From NCBI GenBank assembly GCA_011321815.1, contig DROS01000024.1, positions 1 to 41,335 on the forward strand: a stretch of 41,335 bases of DNA, given 5' to 3'. Positions within the stretch are counted from its first letter, which is position 1. Each line of letters begins with the position of its first letter. Source of the stretch: Gammaproteobacteria bacterium (lineage in GTDB: Bacteria > Pseudomonadota > Gammaproteobacteria > SZUA-152). The translations under genes were made by a program, and so were the position numbers. Under the pieces are notes generated by a model that saw nothing but the letters and a program-made list of their open reading frames with translations, was not told where the DNA came from and made no database searches. Below are positions 6,773 through 24,834 of this stretch, one piece after another.

Positions 6773-7597
6773 TCATTCATTCTGATCACTACTCTGCGCC
6801 CGACGCTCCGCCCGACGGCGACGCAGAGACAGCAAGGTGCCCACCGGTCCGGAAAATGCGTATACCGCAAAACCCGCAAGCAATACCTGCGGTGGGTCCA
6901 GCGAAATCAGCACAAACAACAGCACCACCGCAAGAATGGCCACAAACGGTACCTTGCCCTTGAGATCAAGATCCTTGAAGCTGCGGTAACGCACGTTGCT
7001 CACCATCAACAGCCCCGCGCACACAGTCACCAGCGTGGCGAAAATGGAGGTGGCCAGACCCTCGAATTGATAATCCTGTCCCACCCAGACCATGCCGGCA
7101 ACCACCGCAGCGGCAGCCGGGCTTGCCAGCCCCTGAAAATAGCGTTTGTCGGCACGCCCAACCTGTGTATTAAAACGCGCCAGACGCAATGCCGTGGCAG
7201 CCGTGTAAATAAAAGCCCCCAGCCAACCCAGTTTGCCCAGGTCAGACAGAGCCCACATATACACCACCAGTGCTGGCGCCAGCCCGAAAGACACCATGTC
7301 AGCAAGACTATCGTATTCTGCGCCGAAAGCACTCTGAGTATTGGTCATCCGCGCCACCCGGCCATCCAGACCGTCAAGAATCATCGCAATAAAAACAGCC
7401 ACTGCGGCTGACTCAAAACGCCCGCCCATAGCAGCAACAATAGCGTAAAAGCCTGCAAACAGGCAGCCGGTGGTAAACAGATTGGGCAGCAAATAAATGC
7501 CGCGATGGCGACGGCGCTCTGGCGTACCCTCCCGACTGCTTTCGCGGGAGTTTTCATTGCTGCCATCAATAACGGTGTCTTTTTTGTCTTCGCTCAT
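6773..7597 (-). CDS. pssA: CDP-diacylglycerol-serine O-phosphatidyltransferase
   Basis: An integral membrane enzyme (274 residues) that makes phosphatidylserine from CDP-diacylglycerol and serine. The CDP-alcohol phosphotransferase motif is complete at D75-x2-D78-G79-x2-A82-R83-x8-G92-x3-D96-x3-D100. An N-terminal hydrophilic tail of about 32 residues precedes YLLPNLFTTGCLFAGFYAI, and six to eight membrane segments follow, so this is the type II (Bacillus/Sinorhizobium-like) PssA, not the E. coli phospholipase-D-like form. The C-terminus is arginine-rich. It lies downstream of a psd homologue in the same orientation, as in many proteobacteria, but a small unknown frame separates them. Confidence 0.93.
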   Translation of the reverse strand: MSEDKKDTVIDGSNENSRESSREGTPERRRHRGIYLLPNLFTTGCLFAGFYAIVAAMGGRFESAAVAVFIAMILDGLDGRVARMTNTQSAFGAEYDSLADMVSFGLAPALVVYMWALSDLGKLGWLGAFIYTAATALRLARFNTQVGRADKRYFQGLASPAAAAVVAGMVWVGQDYQFEGLATSIFATLVTVCAGLLMVSNVRYRSFKDLDLKGKVPFVAILAVVLLFVLISLDPPQVLLAGFAVYAFSGPVGTLLSLRRRRAERRAQSSDQNE

Positions 7598-7740
7598 CGT
7601 CTATTTGCCGATTATGATTCCGTGGTTCTTTGAGGTAATGGCTCGTTACGCCCCAAACCTTATGAATCAAAAAACTAAAACACTCCTCCCCAAAAAATCA
7701 ATGAGTATTTAACGCAAAGGTCGCCAGCGCCACTTAATTT

Positions 7741-8019
7741 TTATTGATATATATCAATAAACTTTACTGGCGCAACCACTTTCACCTCTCCATCCACGCT
7801 GATCAAAAATGACTCTCGCAAGACAATGCCATCCATTGCTTTCATTTCAATATCTACCCCTAAAGACAATTGATTATTGACAACAGCCAATGATAAATCT
7901 TGTACGTAACCTTTAATCCCGGGTGATTTTATCTGTATATCTTTTATAATTGTTTGATTATTTGATTCAGCATTAGCCCTGGTTATTAACACTCTGACTT
8001 TATCTGCTGGATGTTCCAA
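7741..8019 (-). CDS. Small hypothetical protein between psd-like gene and pssA
   Basis: An open frame of 92 codons from a TTG at 8017-8019; there is no ATG. The frame stays open another 13 codons upstream (to a stop at 8059-8061), and the extra peptide (DYGYFKLIAYRDG) looks protein-like, so the true start may be another non-ATG codon or the 5' part may be lost. The product is rich in alternating hydrophobic residues (KVRVLITR, LSLGVDIEMKA, VKVVAPVKFIDIY), suggesting a beta fold. It is visibly more AT-rich than its neighbours. I do not recognise the family. It could be a real gene with a weak start or a truncated remnant. Confidence 0.4.
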   Translation of the reverse strand: MEHPADKVRVLITRANAESNNQTIIKDIQIKSPGIKGYVQDLSLAVVNNQLSLGVDIEMKAMDGIVLRESFLISVDGEVKVVAPVKFIDIYQ

Positions 8020-8070
8020 ACCATCTCTATAGGCAATTAGTTTAAAATAACCATAATCTCAGCATATAAA

Positions 8071-8745
8071 TCAGCCTGCTGCCAACTGAACAGGCTTGGG
8101 CGGCGTTACCTTTGCATGCACCAGGGTAGCAATGATGTCCGTGCCCGCCAGTACACTATCACCCACTGACACATCAATACGTGAACCCACCGGAATCAAC
8201 ACCTCAACGTGTGCGCCAAAGTGAATAAAGCCACAGCGTTGCCCCTGACCTATACGTTCACCGCTCTGCGCATAACATTGTGGCCGGGGTAAATGTGAAT
8301 TAACTTCAACCACCAGCACGACATCATCTTTTTCGTCACTTTGAATCCATTGCGCATAAGTTGCAACCTCTTCACCCATACCCGTGATTTTTCGCGGCAC
8401 ATTCAGCCATTGCTCCACCACCCTGCCTTCCATGGGGCTGTGCACGGAATACACACTGGTAATCCCCATTTTCACGCTCACACTCAATGCCTGCCTGTTC
8501 AGATATATATCATGCACAGTATCAATGGCCACCACCTTGCCGTCCACCGGGCTCACAATACCCAAAGGCACTGCGGGCACGTTGCGTGCGGGGTCACGAA
8601 ACAAAAACAACAGCAACAGCACCAATCCCCACAATGGCAATGATGCCAACCCGTACAATAAATATACGATAGCGGCAGGAATGACAGTGGCAGCAATCCA
8701 TACCCAGCCTTCGCGCGCAATTAAGGGATAGCGATAAGACAGCAT
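8071..8745 (-). CDS. psd: Phosphatidylserine decarboxylase homologue lacking the pyruvoyl serine
   Basis: A 224-residue member of the short (Sinorhizobium/archaeal type) Psd family. It starts SYRYPLIAREGWVWI with a hydrophobic anchor (about 14-50), then FRDPARNVP and SPVDGKVVAID (D68). Active enzymes self-cleave at a Gly-Ser in an F-G-S-R context, the serine becoming the pyruvoyl group. Here the segment reads GFIHFGAHVEVLIP, with Ala178 instead of Ser. The usual NVHxxRSP segment reads SVYSVHSP (Y99, H102). From memory of the family, roughly 17 residues before the cleavage site are also missing. The C-terminal VGSRIDVSVGDSVLAGT aligns with the normal alpha-chain, so its GS is not the usual site. 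It is probably not an active decarboxylase. It begins 33 bp after the ilvC terminator. Confidence 0.85.
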   Translation of the reverse strand: MLSYRYPLIAREGWVWIAATVIPAAIVYLLYGLASLPLWGLVLLLLFLFRDPARNVPAVPLGIVSPVDGKVVAIDTVHDIYLNRQALSVSVKMGITSVYSVHSPMEGRVVEQWLNVPRKITGMGEEVATYAQWIQSDEKDDVVLVVEVNSHLPRPQCYAQSGERIGQGQRCGFIHFGAHVEVLIPVGSRIDVSVGDSVLAGTDIIATLVHAKVTPPKPVQLAAG

Positions 8746-8829: not shown

Positions 8830-9897
<1,068 letters not shown>

Positions 9898-9912: not shown

Positions 9913-10407
9913 CTAAATATGTAAATTCTTTGCGCCACGTGAAATACCGGAAACCCCCGAACGTACGGTCTCCAGGATCGGCGTCTTTTCAAACGCATTG
10001 ATAAACGCATCCAGCTTGTCGCCCGCACCTGTCAGCTCAATGGTGTAGCTGGTGGCCGTGACGTCAATAATGCGTCCGCGAAAAATATCCGCCAGGCGTT
10101 TCACTTCTTCCCGCGAATCACTGCTTGATGTACGCACCTTGATCATCAGCATTTCACGCTCGATGTGCGGGCCTTCGGTAAGGTCCACCAGCTTGACCAC
10201 ATCCACCAGCTTGTTCAGCTGCTTGGTAATCTGCTCAATAATTTCATCCGAGCCCCGGGTCACCACCGTCATACGCGACAACGTGACATCTTCAGTCGGC
10301 GCGACCGTCAGTGATTCTATGTTATAGCCACGCGCAGAAAATAATCCTGCCACCCGTGACAAGGCTCCCGCTTCATTTTCCATCAGAATGGAAATGATGT
10401 GGCGCAT
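9913..10407 (-). CDS. ilvH: Acetolactate synthase small (regulatory) subunit
   Basis: The regulatory subunit of acetohydroxyacid synthase, which activates the large subunit and confers valine feedback inhibition. The N-terminal ACT domain begins MRHIISILMENEAGALSRV and continues GLFSARGYNIESLTVAPTED, almost the E. coli IlvH pattern. The C-terminal domain includes GRIIDVTATSYTIELTG. I choose the start at 10407 (164 residues, family length). An in-frame ATG 33 nt upstream would add a lysine-rich extension and cannot be excluded, since neither has a strong ribosome binding site. It lies between ilvB and ilvC in one operon. Confidence 0.95.
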   Translation of the reverse strand: MRHIISILMENEAGALSRVAGLFSARGYNIESLTVAPTEDVTLSRMTVVTRGSDEIIEQITKQLNKLVDVVKLVDLTEGPHIEREMLMIKVRTSSSDSREEVKRLADIFRGRIIDVTATSYTIELTGAGDKLDAFINAFEKTPILETVRSGVSGISRGAKNLHI

Positions 10408-10474
10408 GCCTTTTTCATCCGCTTTTTTTTCTCGTTTCATTTCAGTCTGGGTTCATTATTAACGACATAAAACA

Positions 10475-12169
10475 CTAGATGAGAATCATCTCGTCCAGGC
10501 CAGCACCCGCAGGCACCATGGGATAAACGTTTTCTTCCGGATCGGTGAGAATATCAAGAAAGACCAGGCGGTTTTTCAGTTTGAAAGCTTCTTTCATCGC
10601 GGCTTCCACATCTTCCGGTTTTGTCACCTGTATACCCACATGACCGTATGCTTCGGCAAGTTTTACAAAATCCGGCAAAGAGTCCATATAGGAATGCGAA
10701 TAACGTTCATCGTAAAAGAACTCCTGCCATTGGCGCACCATGCCGAGAAAACCATTGTTTAAACAAACAATTTTGATCGGCAGATTATGTTGCATGCAGG
10801 AAGACAGCTCCTGAATATTCATCTGGATACTGCCTTCACCCGTCACACAGGCAACCGTTGCATCGGGAAAGGCCAGTTGTACCCCCATTGCAGCAGGCAG
10901 ACCAAAACCCATGGTGCCAAGACCACCGGAGTTGATCCAGCGCCGCGGTTTATCAAAACGATAATACTGTGCGGCCCACATCTGGTGCTGACCCACATCT
11001 GATGTCACATAGGCATCACCTTTGGTGATGTTATACAGCATTTCCAGCGCAAACTGGGGCTTGATTTTGTCGCCGTCGGTTTTGTAACTGAGACAATCCA
11101 CCGCACGCCATTCGTTAATCTGCTGCCACCATTCTTTCATGGCCGTTTTATTGGGCTTGAAGTCGCTGGCTTTGATTTCCCTCAGCAGGGATTTGATCAC
11201 ATCGCTGACGCTGCCCACGATAGGCACATTCACCTTCACATTTTTGGAGATAGATGCCGGATCAATATCGACGTGAATGATTTTGGCCTGCGGCGCAAAT
11301 TTTTCGATGTTGCCGGTCACCCGGTCGTCAAAGCGCGCACCAATGGCAATCATCAAATCACAATTGGAAATTGCCATGTTGGCTTCGTAAGTGCCGTGCA
11401 TACCCAGCATGCCGACAAACAATTTGTCCGAGGCGGGAAAACCTCCCAGCCCCATGGAAGTGTTGGTCACTGGCGCATTGAGTTTTTTCGCCAGTTGCGC
11501 CAGTTCTTTATGCGCATTGTCAAGAATCACTCCACCGCCGGTATAAAACATGGGGCGCTTGGCTGCGGCCATCAGTTTCACGGCTTTTTTGATCTGACCG
11601 CCGTGCCCTTTCACCACCGGATTATAGGAACGCATGGTGATTTCTTTGGGATACACATAATCCGCACTGTCCGCCGTCACATCTTTGGGGATGTCCACGA
11701 CCACCGGGCCGGGTCGTCCTGTGGTGGCCACGTAAAAAGCCTTCTTCAGGGTCGACGTCAGATCCCTTACATCCTTCACCAGAAAGTTGTGTTTTACACA
11801 AGGGCGGGTAATACCCACAGCATCCACTTCCTGAAAGGCGTCATTACCGATGAGGTTGGTGGGTACCTGGCCGGTGATCACCACCATGGGGATGGAATCC
11901 ATGTAGGCAGTGGCGATACCCGTCACCGCGTTGGTGGCGCCGGGGCCGGAAGTCACCAGTACCACACCGGGCTTACCCGTGGAACGCGCGTAACCATCAG
12001 CGGCGTGGGTCGCGGCCTGCTCGTGACGCACCAAAATATGTTTGATGTGCTCCTGACGGTCAATAGCATCGTAAATATGCAAAACCGCGCCACCAGGATA
12101 GCCGAACAGGAATTCAACTCCCTCGTCCGCGAGGAAATGGGTCAATATATCTGCGCCAGTCAGTTTCAC
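10475..12169 (-). CDS. ilvB: Acetolactate synthase large (catalytic) subunit
   Basis: The 564-residue catalytic subunit condenses two pyruvates, or pyruvate with 2-oxobutyrate. The catalytic glutamate is E50 (HEQAATHAADGYARS). The FAD-binding middle domain and the C-terminal ThDP domain are complete. The ThDP metal motif reads GEGSIQMN in place of the common GDGS; I recall this from related proteobacterial enzymes, so it is probably a conservative lineage variant. It starts with GTG, preceded by AAGAG. A 21-codon frame ends inside the start (GTGA overlap). It is closest to IlvI/IlvB of the IlvIH type, and heads the ilvB-ilvH-ilvC operon. Confidence 0.96.
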   Translation of the reverse strand: MKLTGADILTHFLADEGVEFLFGYPGGAVLHIYDAIDRQEHIKHILVRHEQAATHAADGYARSTGKPGVVLVTSGPGATNAVTGIATAYMDSIPMVVITGQVPTNLIGNDAFQEVDAVGITRPCVKHNFLVKDVRDLTSTLKKAFYVATTGRPGPVVVDIPKDVTADSADYVYPKEITMRSYNPVVKGHGGQIKKAVKLMAAAKRPMFYTGGGVILDNAHKELAQLAKKLNAPVTNTSMGLGGFPASDKLFVGMLGMHGTYEANMAISNCDLMIAIGARFDDRVTGNIEKFAPQAKIIHVDIDPASISKNVKVNVPIVGSVSDVIKSLLREIKASDFKPNKTAMKEWWQQINEWRAVDCLSYKTDGDKIKPQFALEMLYNITKGDAYVTSDVGQHQMWAAQYYRFDKPRRWINSGGLGTMGFGLPAAMGVQLAFPDATVACVTGEGSIQMNIQELSSCMQHNLPIKIVCLNNGFLGMVRQWQEFFYDERYSHSYMDSLPDFVKLAEAYGHVGIQVTKPEDVEAAMKEAFKLKNRLVFLDILTDPEENVYPMVPAGAGLDEMILI

Positions 12170-21879: not shown

Positions 21880-23118
21880 TTAATGCGCTGCCCATTTCAC
21901 CTGGGACAAATCAATGCCCTCTTTGTACATGTCCCACAATGGTGAAAGTGCGCGCAGTTTTTCGATTGCGCCACGCACATGGGTGATTGCTTCGTCAATA
22001 TCCTCTTCCGTGGTAAAGCGCCCAATGCTGAAGCGAATGGAACTGTGCGCCAGTTCGTCGTTACGCCCCAGGGCGCGCAACACGTAAGAGGGTTCCAGGC
22101 TGGCCGAGGTACAGGCCGAGCCGGACGATACGGCCAAGTCTTTCAGGGACATGATCAGGGATTCACCTTCAACATAATTGAAGCTGATATTAAAGATATT
22201 TGGCACGCTATGGGCCATATCCCCGTTGACATACACCTCTTCGAGATCTTTTACGCCAGCGTATAACCGGTCACGTAAAGCGGCGGCATGCGCCTGATCT
22301 TTAGCCATGTCTTCTTTGGCAATGCGAAAGGCTTCACCCATGCCAACAATCTGGTGTGTGGCCAGCGTGCCGGAACGCATACCCCGCTCATGTCCGCCAC
22401 CGTGTGTCTGTGCTTCCAACCGGATGCGCGGTTTGCGGCGTACATACAATGCGCCCATGCCTTTGGGGCCATAAATCTTGTGCGCAGAAAAAGACATCAA
22501 GTCAACCTTCATGTTTGACAGATCAATATCTACCTTACCTGCACTTTGCGCAGCATCCACATGAAAAACAATCCCCCTGGCACGGGTCAACTCGCCAATG
22601 GCGGTAATATCCTGAATCACTCCCAGCTCGTTGTTGACGTGCATGATGGAAACCAGAATGGTGTCGTCACGCAGGGCCGCTTCCAGTTTGTCCAGGTCAA
22701 TCAGCCCCGTAGGCTCCGGATCGAGATAGGTAACTTCATAGCCTTCACGTTCCAGCTGCCGGCAGGTATCCAGCACGGCTTTATGCTCGGTTTTGCTGGT
22801 AATGATATGTTTACCTTTTTTACTGTTTTTTCCACCATAAAAATGCGCGGCGCCTTTGATGGCCAGATTGTCGGATTCGGTGGCGCCCGAGGTCCAGATA
22901 ATTTCTTTGGGATTGGCGTTTACCAGCGCTGCCACCTGTTTGCGCGCGTCCTCAACTGCTGCTTCCGCCGCCCAACCATAAGCATGGGAGCGCGAAGCCG
23001 GGTTGCCAAACTCACCGTCCGGCGTCAAAAACTGCATCATTTTTTTTGCGACACGGGGGTCCATGGGCGTGGTGGCCGCATAGTCCATGTAAATCGGTCG
23101 TCGGTTTGAGCTTGTCAT
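21880..23118 (-). CDS. iscS: Cysteine desulfurase IscS
   Basis: The canonical 412-residue IscS. It has [13 protein letters not shown] at the N-terminus, the PLP lysine in [12 protein letters not shown] (K214), and the persulfide cysteine in [21 protein letters not shown] (C336, mobile loop). The C-terminus [22 protein letters not shown] is the IscU-binding tail. It removes sulfur from cysteine for Fe-S clusters and other thio-compounds. It follows a second cysteine desulfurase gene by 41 bp and precedes iscU. Confidence 0.97.
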
Positions 23119-23159: not shown

Positions 23160-24323
23160 TCAGGCATAGGCGACGGCTGCAAAGCTTTGCAAAGCACGCA
23201 CCTGTTGCTTGAGACAACCAATAAAGCTGTCAATTTCACTGCGGCGTGACTCTTTACCCAGACTGACGCGAATGGCTCCACGGGCACGCTCCGGCGAAAC
23301 CCCCATGGCCAGCAGCACATGGCTGGGTTCCACGTCACCGGTACCACAGGCGGAGCCGCTGGATACTGCCAGTCCCGCCTGATCAAGATTCATCAACAGG
23401 GTTTCTCCATCCAGCCCCGGTAACGCAAAAAAGCTGGTATTGGGCAAACGCTTTGCCTGTTGACCAAAAATGCACACCTGCGGCAACTCCGATCGCAAAC
23501 GGGTTTCCAGGTAATGGTGCAGCGTTTGCGTCTGTGCGTGGCGCGTGGACAATTCACTCAGCGCCAGTTCTGCCGCCTTGCCAAAACCCACAATGGCCGC
23601 CACATTTTCCGTACCGGCCCGACGCGCTTTTTCATGGCCACCGCCGTGCAACAACGGCTCCATATCCACGGCCTTGTCGACAATCAGTGCACCCGCACCT
23701 TTGGGGCCATAAATTTTGTGCGCGGAAAGGCTCATAAACTGCGCACCGCTGCCGGTAAAGTCCACCGGAATCTTGCCGGCAGCCTGCACCGCATCAACCA
23801 GCAACGTAGCACCAAACTCACGCGCCAGCGCCTCAATGGGCGCCATATCATGGATGATGCCGGTCTCATTGTTCGCCAACATCACCGCCAGGATTTTCGC
23901 GCTGTCTGCCGGCATGCTGGAAAAAATTGCCTGCAAATTCTCAGAAACCAGCAGACCATCGGCATCAACGCCAATTTCATCCAGCATCCAGCCATGTTTT
24001 TGCAAGGCAATGGCCGGGGTGCGCACCGAACTGTGCTCCACACCGCTCATCACAATGTAACCGGATATCAAACGAGCCGCACGCCCTTTTAATGCAAGGT
24101 TATTGGCTTCGGTGCCACCACTGGTAAATACCACTTGCGAGGGATGTGCATTAACCAGTGCAGCCACCTGTTCCCGCGCAACATCCACCGCTGCGCGGGC
24201 AATACGCCCGGACTGATGACCGCTGGAAGCATTACCGAATTGCTCACGCAAAAACGGCAGCATGGCATCCAGCACCCGCCCGTCCAAAGGCGTGGTGGCG
24301 TTATAGTCAAGATAAATGGCCAT
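23160..24323 (-). CDS. Second cysteine desulfurase (NifS/IscS-like) in the isc operon
   Basis: A 387-residue class V PLP enzyme with all desulfurase landmarks: MAIYLDYNATTPLDGRV, EHSSV with the PLP-stacking His97, the PLP lysine K203 ([12 protein letters not shown]), HGGGHEKARRAGTEN, and the active cysteine C326 in SSGSACGTGDVEPSHV. It is clearly diverged from the IscS encoded next to it and lacks the [15 protein letters not shown] tail, so it may not dock on IscU in the same way. The start is set at MAIYLDY, 13 nt after iscR. The frame is open 26 codons further, but that part overlaps iscR and is arginine-rich noise. Confidence 0.92.
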   Translation of the reverse strand: MAIYLDYNATTPLDGRVLDAMLPFLREQFGNASSGHQSGRIARAAVDVAREQVAALVNAHPSQVVFTSGGTEANNLALKGRAARLISGYIVMSGVEHSSVRTPAIALQKHGWMLDEIGVDADGLLVSENLQAIFSSMPADSAKILAVMLANNETGIIHDMAPIEALAREFGATLLVDAVQAAGKIPVDFTGSGAQFMSLSAHKIYGPKGAGALIVDKAVDMEPLLHGGGHEKARRAGTENVAAIVGFGKAAELALSELSTRHAQTQTLHHYLETRLRSELPQVCIFGQQAKRLPNTSFFALPGLDGETLLMNLDQAGLAVSSGSACGTGDVEPSHVLLAMGVSPERARGAIRVSLGKESRRSEIDSFIGCLKQQVRALQSFAAVAYA

Positions 24324-24336
24324 GGCGGGTCGCGGA

Positions 24337-24834
24337 TTACATGCCTGTCGCAGCCTGTAACGGGTTCTCCTGGATGTCCTGCGCTGCCTGCTCCTGCACA
24401 CCCGTCAACTGACGCTCGGACACCATTTTTACGTGGTCCTCCTGCACCAGGTCACCCAACGAGATACCGGTCAGAAAACCCTGAATCTGGTCGCTCAGCG
24501 AACACCAGAGTTTGTGTGTCAGACAGGCTTCGCCATTTTGACAATCACCCTTGCCGCCACAACGGGTCACGGATACTTTTTCATCCACGGCCGCGATTAC
24601 CTGCGCCACGCTGATTTCACCCGCATTCCGGCTCAGGCGGTACCCACCACCCGGCCCTCGTGCACTGGACACCAGGTCCTGCTTGCGCAGGCGCGAAAAC
24701 AGCTGCTCAAGGTAGGATAGTGAAATACCCTGTCGCTGGGAGATATCCGCCAGTGTAATGGGGTGCTCCTTTGCATTTAATGCCAAATCCAGCATGGCCG
24801 TAACCGCATAACGGCCTTTAGTTGTCAGTCTCAT
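24337..24834 (-). CDS. iscR: Fe-S responsive regulator IscR (Rrf2 family)
   Basis: A 165-residue Rrf2-type regulator beginning [19 protein letters not shown]. The winged helix ([18 protein letters not shown], then [12 protein letters not shown]) is intact. The cluster ligands are C92, C98 and C104 with H107 ([19 protein letters not shown]), as in [2Fe-2S] IscR. When it holds a cluster, IscR represses its own operon through type 1 sites; a good one lies at 25083-25107. It is the first gene of the isc operon. Confidence 0.97.

Follow-up and report, generated by a model that had tools for sequence, protein, structure and literature searches.

The psdL locus

The window, that is, the whole stretch of DNA analysed here (41,335 nt, contig DROS01000024.1 of the gammaproteobacterial assembly GCA_011321815.1), carries a gene that we call psdL, which encodes a putative pseudoenzyme related to phosphatidylserine decarboxylase (Psd). 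It lies between the ilvBNC genes and pssA. The features of the locus are as follows; the row counts refer to the 82 pseudo rows defined below.

6773..7597, reverse strand: pssA, phosphatidylserine synthase, the next recognised gene downstream of psdL (TIGR00473, 125.3 bits, cut-off 107)
7598..8070, reverse strand: AT-rich stretch of 473 nt between psdL and pssA (comparison with 37 loci)
8071..8745, reverse strand: psdL, gene of a putative Psd-like pseudoenzyme of 224 aa (ORF with ATG start, Pfam match, relatives)
8212..8214, reverse strand: codon of Ala178 (GCA), at the position of the pyruvoyl-forming Ser (E. coli Ser254; alignment and codons)
8230..8262, reverse strand: GERIGQGQRCG segment, residues 162-172, pseudo-clade signature (R164 in 82/82, G166 in 99%, Q167 in 91%, C171 in 76%)
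8323..8340, reverse strand: S/T-D-E-x-D-D segment, residues 136-141, pseudo-clade signature (D137 and E138 in 82/82, D140 in 96%)
8449..8451, reverse strand: codon of Tyr99 (TAT), at the position of the catalytic His (E. coli His144; alignment, with the E. coli equivalence by motif)
8602..8709, reverse strand: N-terminal hydrophobic membrane anchor, residues 13-48, one predicted helix (hydropathy and model helix)
8830..9846, reverse strand: ilvC, upstream of psdL (named by eye; relatives by phmmer)
9913..10440, reverse strand: ilvN, acetolactate synthase small subunit (named by eye; relatives)
10475..12169, reverse strand: ilvB, acetolactate synthase large subunit (named by eye; relatives)

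The translated ORF contains ...CGFIHFGAHVEV..., including Ala178. In a Pfam profile search the protein scored 55.6 bits against PF02666 (cut-off 22), so that its homology to Psd is not due to chance. The best NCBIfam model was NF003680 (160 bits, below the equivalog cut-off of 262), and the score against TIGR00164 (107.1 bits) was also below the equivalog cut-off of 230, a weak test which only 1 of 120 phylum genomes passed. A phmmer search of the PDB sequences at E 1 gave zero matches. The first-pass annotation had regarded the Psd domain as otherwise well kept, and FRDPAR, SPVDGK and the N-terminal anchor were indeed all found.

Elsewhere in the window, two cysteine-desulfurase-like ORFs lie back to back (21880-23118 and 23160-24401) and adjoin IscU-like and IscR-like ORFs, as judged by eye.

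Loss of the catalytic residues

According to excerpts of a study of the E. coli Psd (PMC7952604), D90/D142-H144-S254 drive self-cleavage, residue 254 gives rise to the pyruvoyl group, and mutation of H144 abolishes decarboxylation, whereas slow cleavage persists in the H144 mutants. Columns were made to correspond by aligning short-type sequences, and were related to E. coli Psd by motif.

A class draw of 276 genomes, each at least 90% complete and belonging to the class of the window, was searched with a profile of 21 relatives (E 1e-6 or better). As this profile came from pseudo rows, it may have overlooked some active-looking short Psds. The short-type gene was matched in 97 of the 276 genomes, and all 97 sequences were aligned. 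Rows with His at column 99, Ser at column 178 and NE[RQ] in the loop were called active-looking (15/97), and the remaining 82 were called pseudo, single-column alignment being unsure in distant rows. Canonical short-type Psds of other lineages have Ser at column 178 in 30/30 and His at column 99 in 30/30. When canonical and active-looking rows are taken together, both residues are found in 45/45, but 15 of these 45 were selected for those residues; in the NER columns the same rows have N and E in 45/45 and R in 91%.

The pseudo rows share two losses. The catalytic His is lost in 80 of the 82 (the site is occupied by Y in 48, F in 21 and other residues, and by His in 2), and NE[RQ] is missing from all 82, including the row of the window. 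Ser at column 178 is retained in 12 of them. The named locus of Thiohalobacter thiocyanaticus (L114) likewise combines Ser at this site with Tyr in place of the His and a missing NER. The Asp of SPxDG, matched by motif to E. coli Asp90, is Asp68 in the window and is Asp in 88% of the 82 rows.

The first-pass annotation had pointed to GFIHFGAHVEV, with Ala178 in place of Ser, and to SVYSVHSP at the NVHxxRSP region. Both are borne out: codon 178 is GCA where 30/30 canonical rows have Ser, and SVYSVHSP is present, with Tyr99 where 30/30 have His. The proposed absence of about 17 residues before the site, however, shrinks to a net loss of 4 in the alignment with the catalytic-looking sequence L089. 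This loss falls between E106 and D137 (E106/D137/R164 of the window correspond to E107/D142/R169 of L089), and the ENER stretch is replaced in the window, with no clean deletion; some relatives are shorter there. Cleavage at Gly187-Ser188, which had been offered as an example of a finding that would overturn the annotation, is unsupported by the columns, as Gly187 occurs in 5/82 pseudo rows, and Ser188 in 50/82 pseudo rows and in 2/45 active-looking or canonical rows.

Single origin of the pseudo rows and the change at position 178

The main tree comprised 130 rows (the window, 96 of the class, 30 canonical and 3 named active-looking rows); the columns of the His, the loop and the Ser were masked. 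On this tree the 82 pseudo rows lie on one side of one branch with support of 100/98, the bootstrap being not fully settled and three rows having long branches. Additional masking of the new signature still left them together in a quick tree (SH-aLRT 99). The clade covers 46 family codes and 60 genus codes.

A further set of 80 named loci, the best 80 of 213 matches, comprised 76 from Gammaproteobacteria, three from Pseudomonadota without a class and one from Nitrospirota. The active-looking short Psd of a Nitrospira-labelled MAG (L111, 1938-2582) groups with gammaproteobacterial ones and lies at ilvC-psd-pssA; transfer or a mis-binned contig could explain it.

The Ser site varies among the pseudo rows, with G in 22 of the 82, A in 21, R in 18, S in 12, C in 4 and other residues in the rest. 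On the 130-row tree the letter changed at least 33 times, and Ser/non-Ser switched 11 times; hence the site is free in the clade. A GA variant forming a clade beside pssA, as the first reading had proposed to look for, was therefore not recovered. Among 10 rows of the genus of the window, Ser is found in 8, Thr in 1 and Ala in the window, while Tyr occupies the His site in 10/10. Codon 178 is TCA or TCG in the genus rows with Ser. Since GCA is one base from the TCA of several close relatives, a base-call error may lie behind Ala178 in this single genome; the clade-level result is independent of Ala178. Judging from the alignment, the Ala appears to be a minor and recent change of one codon in the species of the window only, and the loss of catalysis appears to be old.

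These data bear on the possibility that the protein is still a decarboxylase, acting via another Ser or an unusual processing route, which we consider very improbable. Ser stands at the site in the 12 pseudo rows and the 8 genus rows noted above, and the E. coli H144 mutants cleave slowly (excerpts of PMC7952604). However, Ser is absent from the site in the window, the nearby Ser188 is hardly shared with active-looking or canonical rows (2/45), His and NE[RQ] are lost in 80/82 and 82/82 rows, and in the same excerpts the H144 mutants fail to decarboxylate phosphatidylserine (PS).

Selection and integrity of the reading frame

In comparisons of the window with six close relatives, the dN/dS of psdL was 0.061-0.118. 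The values were 0.063-0.117 for pssA (five close relatives with a finite value) and 0.011-0.030 for ilvC (close relatives). For the two most distant of these relatives, synonymous change approaches saturation, and selection was estimated near the window only. Among these close relatives, psdL is under purifying selection like pssA. At all 80 named loci the frame is open over about 198-245 aa. Many matches of the class draw extend past a stop; apart from two partial rows of 128 and 133 aa, which lie at contig ends, their open frames are nevertheless at least 190 aa.

That psdL is a decaying relic of a Psd is hardly credible on this evidence. The catalytic residues are lost and the Ser site is unconstrained, the AT-rich insert adjoins psdL in the window, and of 11 other genus members nine have a psdL match and two (G003 and G006) have none, which indicates that the gene can be lost or missed in genus mates. 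Decay was nevertheless rejected in view of the dN/dS near 0.1 among close relatives and the new invariant residues, and the formation of one clade across 46 families and the open frames at 80/80 named loci likewise argue against it. As far as the sequences allow, psdL appears to be an old pseudoenzyme rather than a decaying gene. The first-pass view of a retained protein with a changed role thus stands as regards retention and the loss of Psd catalysis, but the Ala is not the defining change.

Conserved gene order

The order ilvC-psdL-pssA is conserved. All 80 named loci have ilvC upstream in the same orientation, with a median gap of 70.5 nt, and in 77 of the 80 pssA was found downstream. Of the 97 class genomes, 80 were tested for adjacency to pssA, which was found in 61/65 pseudo and 11/15 active-looking genomes. 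The four pseudo genomes without adjacency are that of the window, where the 473-nt stretch intervenes, and three with the matches on separate contigs.

The intervening stretch (7598-8070) has a G+C content of 36%, compared with 52% for the window. As a whole it is absent from 37 related loci and from the rest of the genome, where only pieces of 23-47 nt recur. A reading-frame remnant inside it (7741-8019) has no Pfam match.

A Psd/PssA system linked to an exosortase was considered as an identity for the psdL locus. It was rejected, as the genome of the window gave 0 matches to the exosortase family PF09721 at E 0.001.

New signature residues

The pseudo-clade has gained a near-invariant signature consisting of E106, TDExD and GxRxGQG, wherein E106, D137, E138 and R164 each occur in 82/82 pseudo rows. 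Seven signature residues, chosen after inspecting the pseudo rows, are all present in 73/82 of these rows, whereas canonical rows (n=30) carry 0-3 of them. Six of 18 active-looking rows (L224, L226, L252, L091, L107 and L111) carry 5-7 of the seven. Going by the alignment, these six rows may point to an ancestor in which the new feature coexisted with catalysis. When the signature columns were masked, a quick tree did not place the six beside the pseudo-clade (4 changes), and an AU test with seven rows left out left the placement beside the pseudo-clade unrejected (p 0.599, likelihood 8.34 higher). It is thus possible that the signature arose before catalysis was lost.

Such residues could also be read as a new active or metal site (E106, D137, E138, D140, R164, Q167 and often C171) of a neofunctionalised enzyme with other chemistry. 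The charged E106, D137, E138 and R164, invariant in 82/82, are of a kind typical of active sites and interfaces alike. However, most signature residues are also present in the six active-looking Psds, so there is no need to read them as a new active site, and C171 is conserved in 76% only; we regard such an enzyme as unlikely.

A second Psd in the genome

The first-pass annotation had expected either a second Psd elsewhere or unusual synthesis of phosphatidylethanolamine (PE). In a search of the genome of the window (3.58 Mb, 99.16% complete) for another psd, PF02666 matched at two places, psdL (53.9 bits) and a long-type gene (200.4 bits). The latter lies on another contig (G000:C19), encodes 298 aa with NMGST near the C-terminus, and scores 238.9 bits against TIGR00163 (cut-off 111.75). 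The first alternative therefore proved right, and PE synthesis need not be unusual here.

A similar pattern was seen in the class draw. Among the matches listed, the 15 active-looking carriers have one PF02666 match each, of a strength fitting the short gene, whereas in 78/82 pseudo carriers the best match is below 1e-48, which we read as a putative long Psd. The association of the pseudo class with a strong Psd match is significant by Fisher's test (p 2.5e-14, kinship ignored), but because the pseudo rows form one clade, the co-occurrence amounts to little more than one event. In four pseudo carriers (G226, G246, G267 and G131; 150-410 contigs), no further Psd was revealed by PF02666 even at E 10; either assembly gaps or PE made in another way would explain these four.

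In a second set of 30 genomes, drawn from the 80 named loci and overlapping the class draw, 24/25 pseudo genomes have another Psd, which in G075 is split between frames, and the PF02666 search showed no other Psd in the remaining one (G067). Four of the five active-looking genomes have a single match, and the fifth (G076) has a further match of 127.5 bits, which makes a strict exclusion between an active-looking short Psd and a long Psd doubtful. At three places (G010:C3:68583-69242, G016:C20:33758-34372 and G051:C21:3024-3665) a second PF02666 match, covering nearly the full model with 160-185 bits, was observed beside the strongest one.

The co-occurrence would suit a partner or maturation factor of the long Psd, aiding its self-cleavage or sharing its substrate in the manner of a pyruvoyl-enzyme activator. 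A strong Psd match accompanies 78/82 pseudo and 0/15 active-looking genes among the matches listed, and excerpts of PMC3496974 and PMC4410942 provide a precedent in the activator of the pyruvoyl enzyme PanD. However, the psdL gene stays with pssA; PF02666 is matched in 163 of the 179 drawn genomes without a short-type match, so a Psd can manage without psdL; and the co-occurrence may go back to a single event on the tree, while G076 is an active-looking genome with a further Psd match. Such a helper role seems rather improbable to us.

Fold and comparison with known systems

An AlphaFold2 model of the psdL protein, built from 62 sequences, has a mean pLDDT of 90.9. Its best structural match is EIIA-Glc (Z 14.9, 2.5 A over 127 residues), followed by E. 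coli Psd (Z 10.4, 2.7 A over 126 residues), a match limited by the solved E. coli structure, which comprises the beta chain after cleavage. LytM/M23 domains and PsiD come after these, including the inactive regulators EnvC and DipM at Z 8.2-8.7 (DipM, 8.4), values little above the level that the structure tool calls common. Foldseek alone gave the Psd relative PsiD as the best match (E 3.7e-4, TM 0.43).

A control model of the active-looking L089 gave the same order (EIIA-Glc, Z 14.0; E. coli Psd, 11.7). Therefore, the likeness to EIIA is a trait of the short Psd barrel, and an EIIA-like identity special to the pseudo-clade was rejected. The protein also has a weak Pfam match to EIIA-Glc (PTS_EIIA_1, E 0.0099; 16 bits, where the cut-off is 27.2). 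By motif, position 175 may be that of the phospho-His of EIIA; the window has H175 in IHFG, yet His is found in only 6/82 pseudo rows.

The closest known relatives are the short-type phosphatidylserine/archaetidylserine decarboxylases (PF02666; NF003680, NF003678, TIGR00164), with which psdL shares the N-terminal anchor, FRDP, SPxDG and a homologous barrel, and whose active-looking members adjoin pssA too (11/15 genomes). The pseudo-clade differs from them in nearly always lacking the catalytic His, in lacking NER, in not keeping the Ser site and in having gained E106, TDExD and GxRxGQG. The long-type Psd (TIGR00163; E. coli Psd) is a distant homologue, whose His and Ser have no counterpart in psdL. 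EnvC and DipM are likewise inactive barrel proteins, and they act as partners; excerpts of PMC10336132 describe how DipM uses its inactive LytM domain, at the dead site, to dock partner proteins. They regulate cell-wall hydrolases, and they serve here as an analogy of mechanism rather than as evidence of function.

A possible role beside PssA

The psdL protein is very probably a conserved pseudoenzyme, i.e. a short-type Psd barrel on a membrane anchor that would neither self-cleave nor decarboxylate PS. This reading is based on the loss of NER and, nearly always, of His, the unkept Ser, the one origin, purifying selection among close relatives of the window, the linkage to pssA and another strong Psd match in 78/82 carriers; against it, 12/82 pseudo rows keep the Ser and 2/82 keep the His. 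Gene order, anchor, fold and ancestry make a role with PssA or PS the best guess as to its function. Taken by itself, the proposal that the psdL product is a non-catalytic partner in PssA/PS handling has somewhat less than an even chance in our judgment. Adjacency may reflect ancestry alone, active-looking genes adjoining pssA as well. For the conserved pseudoenzyme and the partner of PssA/PS both together, we consider the chances to be balanced.

The course of events might have been as follows. An ancestral short Psd at ilvBNC-psd-pssA would have acquired an additional role, of which E106, TDExD and GxRxGQG are the marks. With PE supplied by a long Psd, catalysis could then be lost and the additional role kept. 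As an adaptor or regulator of the PS step, the protein would interact either with PssA or, at the membrane, with the phosphatidylserine that PssA produces, and the former catalytic groove may serve as the docking site. More specifically, and only tentatively, the clade might be an ancient gammaproteobacterial pseudoenzyme family of single origin that reports on or gates phosphatidylserine synthesis, with a function that arose in an active decarboxylase and outlived catalysis. If gating were true, bacteria would possess a dedicated control point between PssA and Psd.

Descriptions of lipid synthesis usually give the PS/PE branch two enzymes, and psdL would add a further protein to it. The clade also offers a clear case of an enzyme retained after the loss of catalysis, with catalytic-looking relatives that bear the new signature. 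Among the matches listed in a search of open-licence PMC papers by title or abstract opening, no description of an inactive bacterial Psd homologue or of the psdL locus was found. The gene has probably taken on a new job and has been kept in many bacteria of one branch, mostly beside the gene of the preceding step. Judging from the NCBIfam models, genes of this type are likely to be annotated as phosphatidylserine decarboxylase, though they lack what the enzyme needs.
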